Below, one piece after another: positions 13,946 through 61,998 of a DNA stretch of 64,000 nt; the first letter of the stretch is position 1, and every line of letters starts with the position of its first letter. The position numbers and the translations under genes are program-made. The notes below the pieces were generated by a model. That model saw only the letters and a program-made list of their open reading frames with translations. It was not told the DNA's origin and did no database searches. Source of the stretch: Niastella vici (lineage in GTDB: Bacteria; Bacteroidota; Bacteroidia; Chitinophagales; Chitinophagaceae). The DNA is taken from positions 1 to 64,000 of the forward strand of contig NZ_LVYD01000002.1 of the NCBI RefSeq assembly GCF_002077945.1, written 5' to 3'.

Positions 13946-14097
13946 GTTTGAAGTAGGTAAGAGGTAGGAAGTAAGAAGTATGAAGTAAGAAGTATGAAGT
14001 AGGAAGAACCCGAAATTCGGGACTCGTAACAATTAGCAAGCGCGAGCTTCAACATTCAGACTCTTCCTACTTCTTACGTCCTACTTCCTACTTCCTA
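13939..14097. repeat. Inverted heptamer element, GAAGTAA family
   Basis: The left arm at 13939-14007 repeats GAAGTAG/GAAGTAA/GAAGTAT with a 7-bp period. A core of about 50 bp (14008-14058) contains the palindrome CCCGAAATTCGGG. The right arm at 14059-14097 is the reverse complement pattern (CTTCCTACTTCTTAC). The element starts inside the last codons of the preceding gene. A second member is at 59874-59985. Confidence 0.85.
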
Positions 14098-14099
14098 TT

Positions 14100-14398
14100 T
14101 CCCTTCCCTTCTTCACTGAAAATCACTTCTTTAAAGGTGCTAAACAGTACCCCAATCGAAATTTGGCCTGTCTCTTGCTATATGTTCGATGTGAAGGGAT
14201 CGTACATGGAAACATGTATTTCACTAATGATCCTTTTATCTTACAACCAACTCTGATTAGTTCCTAGGAAATTTGCAACCGCTATCCATTTTTGATAGCC
14301 ATTTTTCCGGTTTTACCCTATCATATTGTACCGGATAACATGGTCCGTAACAAGAAAACCGGCAAACAATTAAACCTGTTTGCTTATCTATTATCCAA
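14100..14398. other. Gene-free region before the response regulator
   Basis: About 300 bp between the GAAGTAA repeat and the response regulator. No conserved structure or promoter could be assigned with confidence. Confidence 0.3.
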
Positions 14399-14839: not shown

Positions 14840-14870
14840 TTTCTGAGTGGTTTATTGTTTTGGTTACCGG

Positions 14871-14990
14871 TTACCTGTTTCCGGTTTCCAGGACCTTACT
14901 GTCCAGAATACCCGCCAAAAATCGGACAGTCATTAATTTGAGCCCCGGCAACTGGTAACTGGTAACTGGTAACTGGTAACTGGTAACTGG
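14871..14990. repeat. Inverted heptamer element, GGTAACT family, copy 1
   Basis: The left arm at 14871-14890 has units of the GGTTACC type; the core at about 14891-14944 contains AATTTGAGCCCCGG; the right arm at 14945-14990 has six uninterrupted GGTAACT-type units. It sits between convergent genes, ending three bases from the stop of the GH106 gene. Confidence 0.9.
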
Positions 14991-18053: not shown

Positions 18054-18084
18054 AGTTACCAGTTACCGGTTTCCAGTTGCCGGG
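18054..18084. repeat. Half element of the GGTAACT family, copy 2
   Basis: Only about four units (AGTTACC, AGTTACC, GGTTTCC, AGTTGCC) followed by a core-like GGGGATAAATTCAGG. No opposite arm is recognisable, so this is a decayed or incomplete member between two minus-strand genes. Confidence 0.65.
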
Positions 18085-18134
18085 GATAAATTCAGGATGT
18101 TCTACAATTGGCTGGCTACCCTGCTGCCTGCAAC

Positions 18135-21206: not shown

Positions 21207-21393
21207 CAGTTACCGGTTGCCAGTTACCGGTTTCCGGTTACTGGTTGCCGGTTACAAGCTACTGGTTACCGGTTGCCAGCTACTGGTTTCCGGTTACTGG
21301 TTGCCGGTTACCGGGCCCTTAATGCGGAATGCTTGCCAGTAATCAGAATGCCATAAATTTGAGCCCGGCAACTGGTACCTGGTAACTGGCACC
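21207..21393. repeat. Inverted heptamer element, GGTAACT family, copy 3
   Basis: Long left arm at 21207-21315 (about 15 units alternating GGTTACC, GGTTGCC, GCTACTG and similar), core about 21316-21362 with ATAAATTTGAGCCCGG, right arm 21363-21393. It lies between two minus-strand kinase genes, close to the 3' end of the FGGY gene at 21401. Confidence 0.9.
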
Positions 21394-23850: not shown

Positions 23851-23891
23851 AATTTATGTACTTTGATTTTATGTTACTGTATACTATAGGT

Positions 23892-24001
23892 GAATGGTCA
23901 ATGGTCAATGGTGAGTGAGCTCGCGATATTTCGGGAGTCTGAACATTTGGAAACCCTTTCACGTTTGCCGATTGCCGATTACCGATTACCGATTACCGAT
24001 T
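23892..24001. repeat. Inverted heptamer element, CAATGGT/CGATTAC family
   Basis: Left arm 23892-23917 with GGTCAAT units; right arm 23967-24001 with GATTACC units, both with period 7. The arms are only partly complementary. The intervening 49 bp contain GAGCTCGCGATATTTCGGGAG. The right arm abuts the stop codon of the MFS gene at 24003. Confidence 0.8.
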
Positions 24002-24002
24002 C

Positions 24003-25310
24003 TTAATTCTCCAGTTTCAGTTTTTCCATTTCCGCCACCTGTACACTCTTCTCATTCACATGATGCAGGGTCTTCGCATTATCGGGCAGCGTAATGAATT
24101 TGGTGAGCACGGCGCTTATGAAATACAGCACCGCCAGGATCCAGATAAGCCCTTCTTCACCCACCAGCGTAAAGAACAGGCCAACCAGCGCGGGCCCAAC
24201 AAACACAGGCAAACCGGCGCCCAGGTTTAAGATGGCCATGGCGGCGCCTTTGTCTTTTTTCACCAGCGAAGGCACCAGGGCCGATAAAGGCACATAACCG
24301 GCCAGACAGGCGCCCCATAAAATACCGGCGGTGAGCACAATGGCGAAATTACCGGGAGCGGCCTGGGGCACATAATACAAACCAAGGGTAGTAATAGCGC
24401 AACCTATACCGCCAAACCACATAATGGTATTGCGCCAGCCAAGGCGGTCGCCTACAAAACCGAAGATCAGATTGAAAATGATATTGCTGGTAAAAATGGT
24501 TCCCCAGATCTTGAGCCAGGTAATGGTATCGAATCCGTGTTTCTCCATGTACATAGGCAAAAACACGGGGAAGGCAAATTGCGCGGTGGTATTGATGATG
24601 CGCACGATACCGCCGATCAGTACTTTCGGTTCTTCTTTTACGATGGTTAACCCTTTCAGCAATTCCCCAGCTTTGCTGGTGGTGTTTTGCCCGTTGGCAC
24701 CGGTTTTAAAGGAAGCCTTGTTCAACAGCAGGGCGAAGAACGCGCCGATCAATACCCAGAACACCGAGCTCCATAACGTATTGATGTATCCCAGGCTGTG
24801 AATGGCCCAGCTTGAGTAAAAAGCGCCGAGCACATTGAGGCCGCCCGTAAATACAAACCAGAACCAGCCCACAGCCCGGCCGAGTTTTTCTTTCGGGCTT
24901 TGATAGGCGATCCAAACCATAAAGGAGTACGCAAATAAAGGATAACCAAACCCACGCAGGGCGTAGGTAACGATCATAACGGGATAGTTCAGTTGCGGAA
25001 GCCCCATGCCTACAAAACCGCAGGTGCCGGCCAGGTATAATAACAACCCGGCGAGCATGGTCTTCCTGGGGCCAAACCCTTCGGCCAGCACGCCCGAAAA
25101 CCAGGCCGAAACGGCAACGGTTATTCCATAAGCCGTGAACAGGGTGGCATTTGCTGAAACGCTTAAACCTCTTCCATTTAGGTACGGACTTAACCAGCCG
25201 GTTTCCATACCATCGCCCATCATGAATATGAGGATACCTATATAGCCCCAGAGCAGGGACATGGGAATGCCGGTTTTGTCGGCTAATGAATTTTTGTTGG
25301 CAGCAGTCAT
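24003..25310 (-). CDS. MFS transporter, polyol-permease-like
   Basis: 435 aa with twelve predicted membrane helices. The first helix region S-L-L-W-G-Y-I-G-I-L-I-F-M-M-G-D-G-M-E and the segment FTAYGITVAVSAWFSGVL match the polyol permease (ribitol/xylitol) group rather than the sugar-porter group. It probably imports a polyol or related small alcohol across the inner membrane. The gene lies upstream of the dehydrogenase and kinase genes on the same strand, so its substrate is most likely the input of that pathway. Confidence 0.88.
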   Translation of the reverse strand: MTAANKNSLADKTGIPMSLLWGYIGILIFMMGDGMETGWLSPYLNGRGLSVSANATLFTAYGITVAVSAWFSGVLAEGFGPRKTMLAGLLLYLAGTCGFVGMGLPQLNYPVMIVTYALRGFGYPLFAYSFMVWIAYQSPKEKLGRAVGWFWFVFTGGLNVLGAFYSSWAIHSLGYINTLWSSVFWVLIGAFFALLLNKASFKTGANGQNTTSKAGELLKGLTIVKEEPKVLIGGIVRIINTTAQFAFPVFLPMYMEKHGFDTITWLKIWGTIFTSNIIFNLIFGFVGDRLGWRNTIMWFGGIGCAITTLGLYYVPQAAPGNFAIVLTAGILWGACLAGYVPLSALVPSLVKKDKGAAMAILNLGAGLPVFVGPALVGLFFTLVGEEGLIWILAVLYFISAVLTKFITLPDNAKTLHHVNEKSVQVAEMEKLKLEN

Positions 25311-25351: not shown

Positions 25352-25515
25352 CCCGGTTGCCGGTTGCCGGTTCCCGGGTACCCGGTACCGGACCTTTATT
25401 TCGGAATTGCCGGCAATAATCAACCTGCCAGAAATTTGAGCCCCGGAAACTGGTAACTGGTAACTGGTAACTGGTAACTGGTAACTGGTAACCGGCAACC
25501 GGTAACCGGTAACTG
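25352..25515. repeat. Inverted heptamer element, GGTAACT family, copy 4
   Basis: Left arm 25352-25391 (CGGTTGC units); core 25392-25441 ending AAATTTGAGCCCCGG; right arm 25442-25515 with ten GGTAACT/GGTAACC/GGCAACC units. It lies after the stop of the propeller lipoprotein (25520), between two minus-strand genes. Confidence 0.9.
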
Positions 25516-26841: not shown

Positions 26842-27012
26842 GAATTTGGGATTTAAGGGATAGTGGGATTTCGGGATTTTGCGATTTCGCGATTTTGTGA
26901 TTTCGGAATTGTGGGAATTTGAGATTTTGAAGATTGGAGTTTCCGAATTAATAAGGAATGCAGCGCATAAAGAAATCTCTAAATCCCTAAATCTATAAAT
27001 CTCAAAATCTAA
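26842..27012. repeat. Inverted octamer element, CGGGATTT family
   Basis: Left arm 26842-26936: about twelve 8-bp units such as CGGGATTT, TGCGATTT, CGCGATTT, TGTGATTT. Right arm 26971-27012: five units of AAATCTCT, AAATCCCT, AAATCTAT, AAATCTCA type. Same architecture as the heptamer elements but with period 8. It is the one array not placed at a 3' end: it is upstream of the DeoR gene start at 27031. Confidence 0.85.
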
Positions 27013-27030: not shown

Positions 27031-27795
27031 ATGACTATTACTGACAGACACCAGCTCATTATTCAGAAATTACAGGAAAAAGGACGGGTAGATATTCAGG
27101 AACTCAGCGAAGAGCTGCAGGTTTCGGGCGTTACCATTCGCAAGGACCTGAAATTGCTGGAAGAAAAGAACCTGTTATTCCGCACAAAAGGCGGTGGTTC
27201 TATCAATAATCCCTATGCCATTGAACGCACCATCAATGAAAAGGAGTTTATCAATGCCGATCAAAAGAAGAAGATCGCGAAAGCGGCGCTTTCCCTGCTG
27301 GGGCAGAACGACAGCATAATAATAGGTTCGGGCACTACGGTGTTTGAACTGGCGCAGGCGCTGTACCCACCCAAACATATAACGGTGATAACCCCGGCGT
27401 TGCGGGTGGCCATTGAATTATGCAACCGGCCCAATGTTGATATACTGCAAATAGGCGGGCTCATTCATCACAGCTCGGCTTCCGCTGCCGGCGCCTTTGG
27501 CGAACGCCTGCTCGAAGATATTTCGTGCGGATTGCTGTTTATGGGTGTTGATGGTATTGAACCCGAATTTGGCTTAAGCATCACCAACCTGGCCGAAGCC
27601 AGTCTCGATAAAAAAATGATCTCCGTTGCCCAGCAGGTAGTGGTAATGGCCGACAGCACCAAGTTCGGCCGCCGCGGCATTGGCCGCATCTGCGGGTTAG
27701 ACCAGGTTGATTACATCATCACCGATGCGGGCGCACCAGCTGAAACCATCAGGCAGTTGGAAGAAAAAGGCGTGAAGACGATCATTGCCGAATGA
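27031..27795 (+). CDS. DeoR/GlpR-family transcriptional regulator
   Basis: 254 aa. The N-terminal HTH (residues 6-58) includes Q-K-L-Q-E-K-G-R-V-D-I-Q-E-L-S and V-S-G-V-T-I-R-K-D-L as the recognition helix, followed by the KTKGGG hinge. The C-terminal DeoRC sensor domain (75-235) contains I-G-S-G-T-T and the M-A-D-S-T-K-F-G-R-R-G block near 209-219, which in this family binds sugar or polyol phosphates. It is divergent from the adjacent catabolic genes, so it is the likely repressor of that locus, with a phosphorylated kinase product as inducer. Confidence 0.92.
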   Translation: MTITDRHQLIIQKLQEKGRVDIQELSEELQVSGVTIRKDLKLLEEKNLLFRTKGGGSINNPYAIERTINEKEFINADQKKKIAKAALSLLGQNDSIIIGSGTTVFELAQALYPPKHITVITPALRVAIELCNRPNVDILQIGGLIHHSSASAAGAFGERLLEDISCGLLFMGVDGIEPEFGLSITNLAEASLDKKMISVAQQVVVMADSTKFGRRGIGRICGLDQVDYIITDAGAPAETIRQLEEKGVKTIIAE

Positions 27796-28020
27796 GTTGC
27801 CGGTTACCAGTTACCAGTTACCGGTTACCAGTTACCAGTTACCGGTTACCAGTTTCCAGTTGCCGGTTACCAGTTTCCAGTTACCAGTTACCAGTTACCA
27901 GGAAACAGGTACCAGTTACCAGTTTACCTGTTTCCGGTTGCCAGATCCTAACTTCCAGACTCCCGAAAACAGCTGGCATTCCTGATTTCCCGGAAACCGG
28001 TACCCGGTAACCGGCAACCA
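27796..28020. repeat. Inverted heptamer element, GGTAACT family, copy 5 (largest)
   Basis: Left arm 27796-27943, about 21 units of AGTTACC, GGTTACC and AGTTTCC, starting at the very base after the DeoR stop codon. Core about 27944-27988. Right arm 27989-28020. Convergent genes flank it. The core differs from the common one, apart from its CCGG ends. Confidence 0.9.
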
Positions 28021-32699: not shown

Positions 32700-32708
32700 C
32701 AGATGAAT

Positions 32709-32860
32709 GTTACCAGGTAACAGGTACCAGGTACCGGTTACTGGTTGCCGGGCAAAAAATTCGGAGAGCCTGACTACAGACAACCTTTTCGATATTCAAT
32801 TCCTGGGAACCGGGAACTGGCAACCGGTAACCGGGAACTGGCAACCGGCAACCGGTAACA
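32709..32860. repeat. Inverted heptamer element, GGTAACT family, copy 6
   Basis: Left arm 32709-32752, core about 32753-32801, right arm 32802-32860 (GGGAACT/GGCAACC units). It fills the gap between the convergent helicase and ABC transporter genes. Confidence 0.88.
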
Positions 32861-36390: not shown

Positions 36391-36540
36391 GGGTTACCAG
36401 GTACCAGTTACCAGGTACCAGTTACCAGGTACCAGTTACCAGGTACCAGTTACCGGGCCATAAATCAATGGCAGGCCGGGGATTTTCCGGCATGCTTGCA
36501 ATAAGGGCCTGGTAACCGGATACCGGTAACCGGAAACTGA
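36391..36540. repeat. Inverted heptamer element, GGTAACT family, copy 7
   Basis: Left arm 36391-36457 made of a 14-bp higher-order unit GGTACCAGTTACCA repeated four times; core about 36458-36507 (GGGCCATAAATCAATGG to AAGGGCCTGG); right arm 36508-36540. Flanked by convergent tetR and AI-2E genes. Confidence 0.92.
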
Positions 36541-36569
36541 AACATTTATCAACTGATCAGGTTTTATGC

Positions 36570-43506: not shown

Positions 43507-43599
43507 ATGGATTTCTGATTTTGAGATGTAGCGATTTTGAGATTTCAATTTGCTTTAGCCTTTTTATAAAATCTCAAAATCCCGAAATCCCGAAATCGC
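43507..43599. repeat. Inverted octamer element, GATTTTGA family
   Basis: Left arm 43507-43548 (ATTTTGAG, ATGTAGCG, ATTTTGAG, ATTTCAAT); right arm 43567-43599 (AAATCTCA, AAATCCCG, AAATCCCG, AAATCGCT). Period 8. It lies between two minus-strand genes, about 20 bp from the stop of the Gfo/Idh gene at 43622. Confidence 0.85.
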
Positions 43600-45144: not shown

Positions 45145-45268
45145 AGTTACCAGTTGCCGGGTACCAGTTACCGGGTACCAGTTACCGGGGCACAAATTAT
45201 AAGCAGGCTGATTACAGGCGGGCTTTCCGCAATAAGGTTCTGGTAACCGGGAACAGGCAACCGGAAAC
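45145..45268. repeat. Inverted heptamer element, GGTAACT family, copy 8
   Basis: Left arm 45145-45190 (AGTTACC, AGTTGCC, GGGTACC units), core about 45191-45238 (GGCACAAATTATAAGCAGG to AATAAGGTTC), right arm 45239-45268. A degenerate GTTGCA array lies just to the left (45101-45138). The right end touches the stop of the bicupin gene. Confidence 0.9.
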
Positions 45269-48518: not shown

Positions 48519-48631
48519 CAGTTGCCGGTTACCAGTTACCAGTTTCCGGGTCGCAAATCAAGGCCGGCTGAGCATTGGCGGGCATGCTGACATTTAGGGC
48601 CTGGCAACCGGAAACCGGGAACCGGAAACTG
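48519..48631. repeat. Inverted heptamer element, GGTAACT family, copy 9
   Basis: Left arm 48519-48550; core about 48551-48599 (GGTCGCAAATCAAGGCCGG to ATTTAGGGC); right arm 48600-48631 (CTGGCAA, CCGGAAA, CCGGGAA, CCGGAAA). The core matches copy 10, reversed, at nearly every base. It lies 14 bp from the stop of the PL6 gene. Confidence 0.92.
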
Positions 48632-59750: not shown

Positions 59751-59873
59751 GTCGGTTTTTAGTTGGTGTAGCAGTAGTTTACCTGAACAAACCGAAAGTA
59801 AACAATTCAAACGAATACACAAATTCCGGCATTGTTAATACACCTAAAACTTTTATGTACCCGCCTGAATTCG

Positions 59874-59985
59874 GAAGTAGGAAGTAAGAAGTATGAGGTA
59901 TGAAGAACCCGATTATCGAAATTGTTGATTATTTATGAAATTTAAACTCTTCTTACTTCTTACCTCTTACTTCCTACCTCTGTAT
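59874..59985. repeat. Inverted heptamer element, GAAGTAA family, second copy
   Basis: Left arm 59874-59907 (GAAGTAG, GAAGTAA, GAAGTAT), core of about 40 bp starting GAACCCGATTATCGAAATTG, right arm 59947-59985 (CTTCTTACTTCTTACCTCTT). The right arm extends into the gene starting at 59960 and encodes its last residues. Confidence 0.85.
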
Positions 59986-61846: not shown

Positions 61847-61885
61847 CTGAATAAATTTTCGTCAATGGAGAATGGTGAATGTTGC

Positions 61886-61998
61886 TGTTACCGGTTACCG
61901 GTTTCCGGTTACCAGGCCCTAAATCTCAGCATGCCTGCCAATGTTCAGCCCGTCCTTGATTTATGCCCCGGCAACTGGCGACTGGTAACTGGCAACCG
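61886..61998. repeat. Inverted heptamer element, GGTAACT family, copy 10
   Basis: Left arm 61886-61916; core about 61917-61966, the near-exact reverse complement of the core of copy 9; right arm 61967-61998. A short CAATGGA/GAATGGT run at 61864-61882 lies just in front, resembling the family at 23892. Confidence 0.92.

Follow-up and report, generated by a model that had tools for sequence, protein, structure and literature searches.

A fold-back family of intergenic heptamer arrays in Niastella

Introduction

Long inverted termini made of short tandem repeats around a middle are characteristic of the Drosophila Foldback (FB) elements. The elements described here are alike in build, and are likened to FB by build alone, FB being eukaryotic and far longer. 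Degenerate heptamers in paired arrays that fold are also found in the cyanobacterial STRR, including in the Nostoc tRNA-Leu intron; here too the degenerate, folding heptamers are alike, the words and taxa different, and to our knowledge the STRR do not constitute a dispersed array-core-array family.

Other heptamers and palindromes have been described from bacterial spacers. As set out in the parts of the source drawn on here, the GGGNATC repeat is a degenerate heptamer with a variable position and a preference for four units, which forms inverted pairs (70 in Xcc and 75 in Xac), lies mostly in intergenic DNA nearer its upstream neighbour (28 nt on average) and is rare between divergent genes (PMC4692102). 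Such heptamers occur in Xanthomonas and Nostoc; one G-rich unit was studied, and quadruplexes were proposed for it (PMC4692102). TAACTGA heptamers form intergenic tandem arrays in Beggiatoaceae, Cyanobacteria and five Bacteroidetes, the Bacteroidetes cases being long arrays absent from their relatives; the main genome of that account holds 169 direct sets and one inverted set, mostly just upstream of start codons (PMC4679880). REP and REPIN sequences, which go with RAYT transposases, are short, palindromic, extragenic and many per genome, and favour tandem and convergent gene pairs (PMC3733652). Tandem-repeat density is reported to be high in Bacteroidota (PMC12699852).

Here we analyse the window, a stretch of 64,000 nucleotides from Niastella vici, in which a first-pass annotation had listed ten intergenic elements, one of them a half, built of a heptamer array, a shared core and an inverted heptamer array, as a form not known to it from the literature. 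In keeping with that impression, no array-core-array heptamers in Niastella or Chitinophagaceae were found by title or abstract opening in the open-licence literature, which holds few subscription journals; for the build itself, however, there is a precedent in Xanthomonas (PMC4692102, in the parts considered). The elements, called GTTNCC after their unit, resemble GGGNATC in the variable position, the four units, the inverted pairing and the 3' bias. Unlike GGGNATC, their units lack a GGG tract and they have a conserved 55-bp core, none being described for GGGNATC in those parts of the source (PMC4692102); moreover, about 29 word clusters occur in the present genus, several without G-tracts, with word swaps at orthologous sites. 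The right arm of GTTNCC, read as TAACTGG, is one letter from TAACTGA, for which the consulted parts of the account describe no array-core-array form (PMC4679880). With REP and REPIN, GTTNCC shares its shortness, high number per genome, palindromy, extragenic location and preference for tandem and convergent spacers; it differs in that its arms are tandem heptamers, without the GTAG/CGTC tag and without a RAYT gene flanked by copies. Given the Xanthomonas precedent, GTTNCC is best regarded as an unusual variant of Xanthomonas-like repeats rather than something wholly new.

Results

Elements in the window

All ten listed sites are real and every one holds heptamer arrays, from 14863-14987 at the first to 61881-61996 at the last (Table 1). 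Nine have the complete order of array, core and inverted array, and the tenth, at 18054, is a half element, as had been noted from the start. Arms had been put at about 3 to about 21 units and measure about 4 to 21, with 21.3 copies over 27795-27944 (TRF) in the expanded left arm of an element that begins immediately after an ORF ending at 27795. The element at 32708 was missed by the strict array-pair detector of the 864-kb scan reported below. Four fold-backs of words other than GTTNCC also lie in the window and had been overlooked in the first-pass annotation.

Table 1. Repeat features of the window, in order of position
Feature	Position	Strand	Composition
Fold-back of another word, period 7	13952..14108		GTAAGAA/GTATGAA units, core of about 54 bp, inverted TTCTTAC/TTCCTAC units
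GTTNCC element	14863..14987	+	4 units, 57-bp gap with type A core, 6 units
Half element	18054..18085	-	single 4-unit array, diverged core, without inverted partner
GTTNCC element (site under study)	21209..21393	+	13 units, 54-bp gap, 4 units
Two period-7 arrays, different words	23884..24011		GGTCAAT left, CCGATTA right; mutual complementarity weak (inverted score 14)
GTTNCC element	25356..25513	+	5 units, 55-bp gap, 10 units
Period-8 fold-back	26857..27012		GATTTCGG-type versus AAATCTC-type units
GTTNCC element, expanded left arm	27796..28018	+	49-bp gap, 4 units on right
GTTNCC element	32708..32860	-	left arm mostly GGTACC-type units, core, about 7 inverted units
GTTNCC element between convergent ORFs	36393..36543	-	9 units, 56-bp gap, 5 units
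Period-8 fold-back	43517..43597		GATTT/AAATC word as at 26857-27012, 23-bp core
GTTNCC element	45146..45268	-	6 units, 55-bp gap, 4 units
Canonical GTTNCC element	48521..48629	-	4 units, 55-bp gap, 4 units
Period-7 fold-back	59864..59981		GAAGTAG/GAAGTAA units, core of about 41 bp
GTTNCC element	61881..61996	+	5 units, 56-bp gap, 4 units; outer end GAATGTTGCTGTTACC

The octamer fold-back word GATTT/AAATC recurs in the species, at 26857-27012 and 43517-43597 of the window and at sites on C1, C41 and C2, with short cores, of 20-30 bp at most sites. Among the nine relatives in the genus (Niastella/Longitalea, labelled G001-G009, with this genome as G000), the spacer orthologous to 23884-24011 holds related GTGAAAC/GTGAATC arrays in G001, G005 and G007 and none in G003, G004, G006 and G009. 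At the contig edge, positions 1-103 of the window form a period-21/42 tandem repeat, AAACATTGCGTGGAAAGTTCA.

Build of the GTTNCC element

We scanned 864 kb of the 10.06-Mb genome, the window plus 800 kb more, for GTTNCC array pairs. Nineteen pairs ran in the order left then inverted, one of them with a gap of 0; the opposite order was seen 0 times and the same direction once, and a single shuffle of the 864 kb gave 0 GTTNCC array pairs of any kind. The typical plan is about four heptamers GTTNCC[A/G], a core of 54-56 bp and about four inverted heptamers, and it recurs in 33 further elements of this genome picked by model score. When pairs of every origin are pooled, pattern hits in other taxa among them, 61 of the 135 gaps measure 51-63 bp with a peak at 54-56, one measures 102 and 73 measure 0-49; four units are the mode in both arms, and left and right arm lengths are uncorrelated (r = -0.005). 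Within the unit the constant letters are strongly kept (G 0.99, T 0.90, T 0.95, C 0.98 and C 0.97), and the commonest letters at the two variable places reach A 0.58 and G 0.45, in 468 units that include hits outside Niastella/Longitalea.

A shared core had been claimed, and the cores are indeed more alike than random DNA. The 61 cores whose gaps measure 51-63 bp, some of them from pattern hits in other taxa, gave a mean similarity of 37.6 when oriented versus 14.8 against shuffled sequence. Reversed, they still scored a mean of 27.1, which together with model matches on both strands indicates that the core is quasi-palindromic. At least two core types, A and B, can be told apart, and they are related. 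The model was built from 47 of the 61 cores, 14 having been excluded by eye as interrupted, non-aligning or from other taxa, and most core columns of this alignment are 34-89% conserved.

The two ends of the element are not identical. By the base before the innermost GTT, 59 of 87 elements have one G-arm and one A-arm, and the second unit carries T or C at its variable place in 43 of the 59 G-arms and A (GTTACC) in 39 of the 59 A-arms; this difference speaks for copying of whole elements. (The G-arm/A-arm comparison, like the variable-place match and wobble tests below, left out 52 loci: 51 outside Niastella/Longitalea, plus L079.) The element is about 110 bp long, with two non-identical ends of about four heptamers each and a 55-bp quasi-palindromic core. 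We leave as weak the observations that the G-arm lies 5' of the core in 27 cases and the A-arm in 13, with 14 ties, and that core orientation is opposite to tandem gene direction in 26 cases and the same in 12. At G000:C51:49865-50560 (L340, about 230-980), a run of eight complete elements, seven of them alike, is arranged head to tail at 88-bp spacing, with junctions at GGTACC. In one GTTNCC pair of G005 (L084, G005:C45:177515-177599), a terminator-like hairpin and T-run lie between the arms, replacing the usual core.

Copy number and taxonomic range

Searches of the whole genome and of the relatives with the 47-element model recovered many further copies: at least 150 matches in this genome and 4-127 in the nine relatives (G001, 116; G002, 127; G003, 4; G004, a single contig of 9,033,684 bp, 31; G005, 72; G006, 99; G007, 106; G008, whose genome is 61% complete, 7; G009, 51). 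One family at a scale of hundreds of copies, as first proposed, is thus upheld by the at least 150 model matches. Extrapolation to the genome from ten copies in 50 kb is not valid, since elements are unevenly spread: the 64-kb window alone accounts for 8 of the 19 pairs in the 864-kb scan, C1 has 0 elements over 200 kb and C41 has 1 over 260 kb. Some 20-kb blocks of C41, C1 and C45 have 37-41% GC versus about 45% elsewhere, and no GTTNCC elements were found in them; many adjacent blocks of C41 and C1 are likewise without these elements.

A stricter pattern matched 9 of 10 genus genomes (with one match in G003 and none in G008) versus 1 of 109 others, its backward control giving 0-2 matches per genome. 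Unrelated taxa were also among the pattern matches listed, and those of their cores that were compared did not fit the family by eye. The GTTNCC elements are one real fold-back heptamer family, and the word is nearly confined to one genus.

Folding and pairing of the arms

The proposal that the arms fold into one long stem holds in part. Single copies fold arm to arm: 18 elements of this genome fold better than dinucleotide shuffles (mean z -4.1), and a fraction of 0.27-0.89 of the left arm pairs with its right counterpart. Against this, pairing at the two variable positions of a unit is infrequent, in part below that of shuffled partners, and RNAalifold did not find a long consensus stem. Arm-to-arm pairing was 79.4% versus 82.2% shuffled, lower than in any of the 500 shuffles, since matches at the variable positions are infrequent, and covariation was on that ground rejected as proof of RNA structure; the 83-element arm-match test included hits outside Niastella/Longitalea. 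For the 33 further elements, matching fell below expectation at the linking base of the innermost unit and at N of units 1 and 2, and not at other units. When arms were ordered as G-arm and A-arm, the N deficit was not significant (P 0.13, 0.10 and 0.62), so that we read the mismatch as mostly the ancestry of two different ends. The linking-base deficit appears in register only (z -5.2 for unit 1, -3.4 for unit 2), and there may be selection for mismatch at this base. On the sense strand of tandem genes, G.U was not above A.C (11 versus 18 elements, 14 ties).

These data bear on the possibility that the elements are 3'-end RNA hairpins under host selection, acting as terminators without a T-tract or as stabilisers of mRNA 3' ends, with letters free as long as the arms pair. 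The strong folding of single elements fits such a role, but the lack of a long consensus stem, arm pairing below that of shuffles and the lack of a G.U preference over A.C on the sense strand all speak against it.

Gene context and turnover at orthologous spacers

Genes were called as longest ORFs of at least 100 aa, and start positions are therefore rough; the cut-off was 90 aa for the synteny, orthologous-spacer and orthologue-terminator comparisons and 60 aa for the 33 further elements, 26 of which are intergenic. Among spacers of at least 60 bp, 44 of 120 convergent spacers hold arrays, as do 131 of 443 tandem and 24 of 151 divergent ones, and this leaning towards spacers with gene 3' ends is what 3'-end hairpins would produce. 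Of 103 tandem spacers measuring 100-500 bp, 34 have an array that overlaps the stop side and 6 have one that overlaps the start side. For arrays wholly inside tandem spacers the mean relative position is 0.473 (p = 0.185), a drift to the stop that is not significant, and 19 of 91 arrays lie within 10 bp of the stop versus 12.7 expected. The stop-codon preference is weak, and it counts against the explanation that we prefer, a dispersed repeat tolerated near gene 3' ends.

Six relatives share the gene order of the window, most genes being 70-95% identical. Relatives differ at the ten sites: some are without an array, several carry one with a different word (the words were in part identified by eye, and the marking covers GTTNCC only), and some have spacers of just 10-17 bp where an element of 109-185 bp stands here. 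For the closest pair, G006 and G007, 133 orthologous spacers include 36 with arrays in both, 16 with an array in one only and 81 with none, and the word is the same in 23 of the 36 shared spacers versus 8.7 when shuffled. Between the window and the six relatives, 155 spacer comparisons, which are not independent, gave arrays in both in 32 (about 20 expected from the margins), only here in 29, only there in 18 and none in 76, with the same word in 9 of the 32 (shuffled sum about 4.5). At site 81-82 both arms vary in word, being GTTACC-type in G006 versus GTTACAG-type in G007. No insertion event was observed, spacers being too diverged for target duplications or clean empty sites to be read, the closest pair having 83.2% identity over the aligned part. 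The tendency of orthologous spacers to hold some array even when its word differs agrees with a 3'-end hairpin, and shared occupation by different words could reflect host function, a hot spot or spacer type.

Canonical terminators, called by a simple custom detector, also supply evidence on both sides of the 3'-end account. They are scarcer beside arrays, at similar mean spacer lengths: in spacers of 80-400 bp, a terminator is present in 9 of 39 convergent spacers with an array versus 28 of 44 without (p = 0.0003), and in 7 of 100 tandem spacers with an array versus 55 of 221 without (p = 0.0001). Array-free tandem spacers have a terminator in 10 of 72 cases if the orthologue has an array versus 13 of 165 if the orthologue has neither array nor terminator, and at site 74-75 a simple GC-rich hairpin in G006 stands against a period-8 fold-back in G007. 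Yet those 10 of 72 tandem cases, and 3 of 15 convergent ones, are few when set against the 84 of 97 tandem and 6 of 9 convergent spacers that have a terminator if the orthologue has one (3 of 5 convergent if it has neither an array nor a terminator), all these orthologue counts being pooled over species pairs and not independent. Spacer room is a partial confounder, tandem array-free spacers below 120 bp having a terminator in 11 of 168 cases. The paucity of terminators in array-free orthologous spacers means that arrays do not simply replace terminators. As for the features of an intrinsic terminator, the stable hairpin is present and the T-tract absent, a T-run following the arms at only 4 of 70 arm ends. 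Taken together, we find the 3'-end hairpin, the chief rival of our preferred explanation, a possible but unlikely account of the family.

A wider system of period-7/8 words

GTTNCC is not alone. With low-complexity arrays left out, the 864 kb of this genome contain 57 intergenic tandem arrays of period 7, 20 of period 8 and 10 of period 11, with echoes at periods 14 and 16 and only 0-2 arrays at periods 5, 9, 10 and 13; one shuffle gave at most one intergenic array per period. In 393 kb of the relatives there are 93 period-7 and 41 period-8 intergenic arrays. At a score of at least 26, an inverted partner lies no more than 200 bp away from 97 of 238 intergenic arrays of period 6-12, versus 3 in the reversed control and 14 with flanks of other arrays, leaving 141 of 238 without a partner at that score; candidate fold-backs number 73. 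From 1.66 Mb of the genus, 331 period-7/8 arrays fall into 29 word clusters (20 and 9 for the two periods), of which 25 contain at least two arrays. Many clusters combine a constant stretch with a few variable positions, and many have the fold-back build. That the GTTNCC word is one of about 29 such clusters in the genus had escaped the initial reading, as had the exchange of words at orthologous sites.

Elsewhere in the same family, 434 kb outside the genus hold 46 period-7 and 3 period-8 arrays, 32 of the 46 coming from 60 kb of G064, a 7.3-Mb genome of another genus (L245, L301 and L302); 188 kb of other families hold 2 and 1. By this survey the build is patchy in Chitinophagaceae and the GTTNCC word close to a matter of the genus. 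In G064, period-7 arrays are denser than in the Niastella stretches, and there are no period-8 arrays in the 60 kb.

The other period-7/8 words of the genus are presumably elements of the GTTNCC kind. Only tentatively, and as something we doubt, would we extend this to a Chitinophagaceae superfamily united by a rule of build and not by sequence: 7- or 8-bp units with 4-5 constant letters, some four to each arm, with the arms in inverted orientation on either side of a core. A single activity, recognising the spacing of units and the pairing of arms instead of one fixed word, would then copy each of the roughly two dozen words in a genus, so that orthologous spacers would exchange words between species.

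The same survey allows a purely local origin to be weighed, in which slippage makes the 7-8 bp arrays, template switching inverts one arm and no element moves. The peaks at periods 7 and 8, the independent variation of arm lengths and the many arrays without an inverted partner at the score used would all follow from it. Template switching, however, should match the variable places, and the observed match is no better than chance and partly worse. A 55-bp core common to unrelated loci, moreover, needs copying between loci, which makes local mutation alone improbable for GTTNCC. It could account for words without a shared core.

The variety of words also bears on G-quadruplexes, as proposed for the Xanthomonas heptamers, in which four units would supply four G-tracts. 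The four-unit mode and a GG in each inverted-arm unit are compatible with this, but the tract is GG and not GGG, with loops of 5 bases, and other fold-back words, such as the AGTTGTTC, GATAATGT, AACGCTG and AGTTCAA types, have no G-tracts. We consider quadruplex formation very improbable as the basis of the family. Words without G-tracts that follow the plan of the Xanthomonas repeats weaken the quadruplex as a general explanation.

TnpA and RAYT candidates

PF01797 gave one strong hit per genome in 10 of 10 genus genomes, and nine weaker hits. The strong hit is a single-copy, 142-aa IS200-like TnpA (HMH and Y motifs read by eye), whose gene sits, by eye, between chorismate-mutase-like and aroB-like genes in the ten genus loci (L267-L276; G000:C46:19865-20290) and looks vertically inherited. 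A heptamer array lies 5' of the gene in 9 of 10 loci, with words GTGAATG/CGGCAAT and not GTTNCC. As a driver of the arrays TnpA was rejected: other spacers of the TnpA loci also hold arrays in most species; relatives 54 and 61% identical occur in G011 and G038, whose sampled 20 kb are without arrays; and G012, G035 and G060 have 2, 2 and 4 period-7 arrays in 20 kb but no TnpA match. The IS200-like TnpA, the sole candidate enzyme examined, does not track the arrays, which weighs against the copying that our preferred explanation calls for.

Around the nine weaker PF01797 loci, RAYT-like by eye, there are 0 period-7/8 arrays within 3.2-3.3 kb, and one period-11 array. The GTAG or CGTC tag is absent from the GTTNCC consensus, GTAG does occur in some other words of the genus (GAAGTAG), and in the 18 bp outside the arms (110 flanks) no letter rises above 53%.

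Discussion

We give a probability of about one half to the reading that GTTNCC is a dispersed, non-autonomous fold-back repeat that spreads by copying of the entire element, is tolerated close to the 3' ends of genes and changes its arms by slippage. We count in its favour the common core at many unrelated loci, the prevailing plan of four units, about 55 bp and four units, the distinct ends, the near confinement to one genus, the independent variation of arm lengths, the one locus with a head-to-tail run of whole elements, and the presence, absence and word swap at orthologous spacers. Terminal inverted repeats, a MITE-like feature, are present. For a repeat of this kind, a trans-acting activity would copy the whole element to a new site, and most surviving copies would be those in spacers close to the 3' ends of genes, where they may do little harm. 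After copying, unequal recombination or slippage would lengthen or shorten the arms; something would still require GTT..CC in each unit, while the other two positions drift. Weighing against this reading, the constraint on GTT..CC in every copy exceeds the needs of a purely selfish repeat and suggests a bound factor or function.

A heptamer excess in bacterial spacers has been noted before, without a general explanation in the papers compared here. With roughly two dozen words, frequent swaps and conserved synteny, the genus makes gain, loss and word change measurable. If the arrays shape transcript 3' ends, they would represent a large unannotated class of such ends in Bacteroidota.
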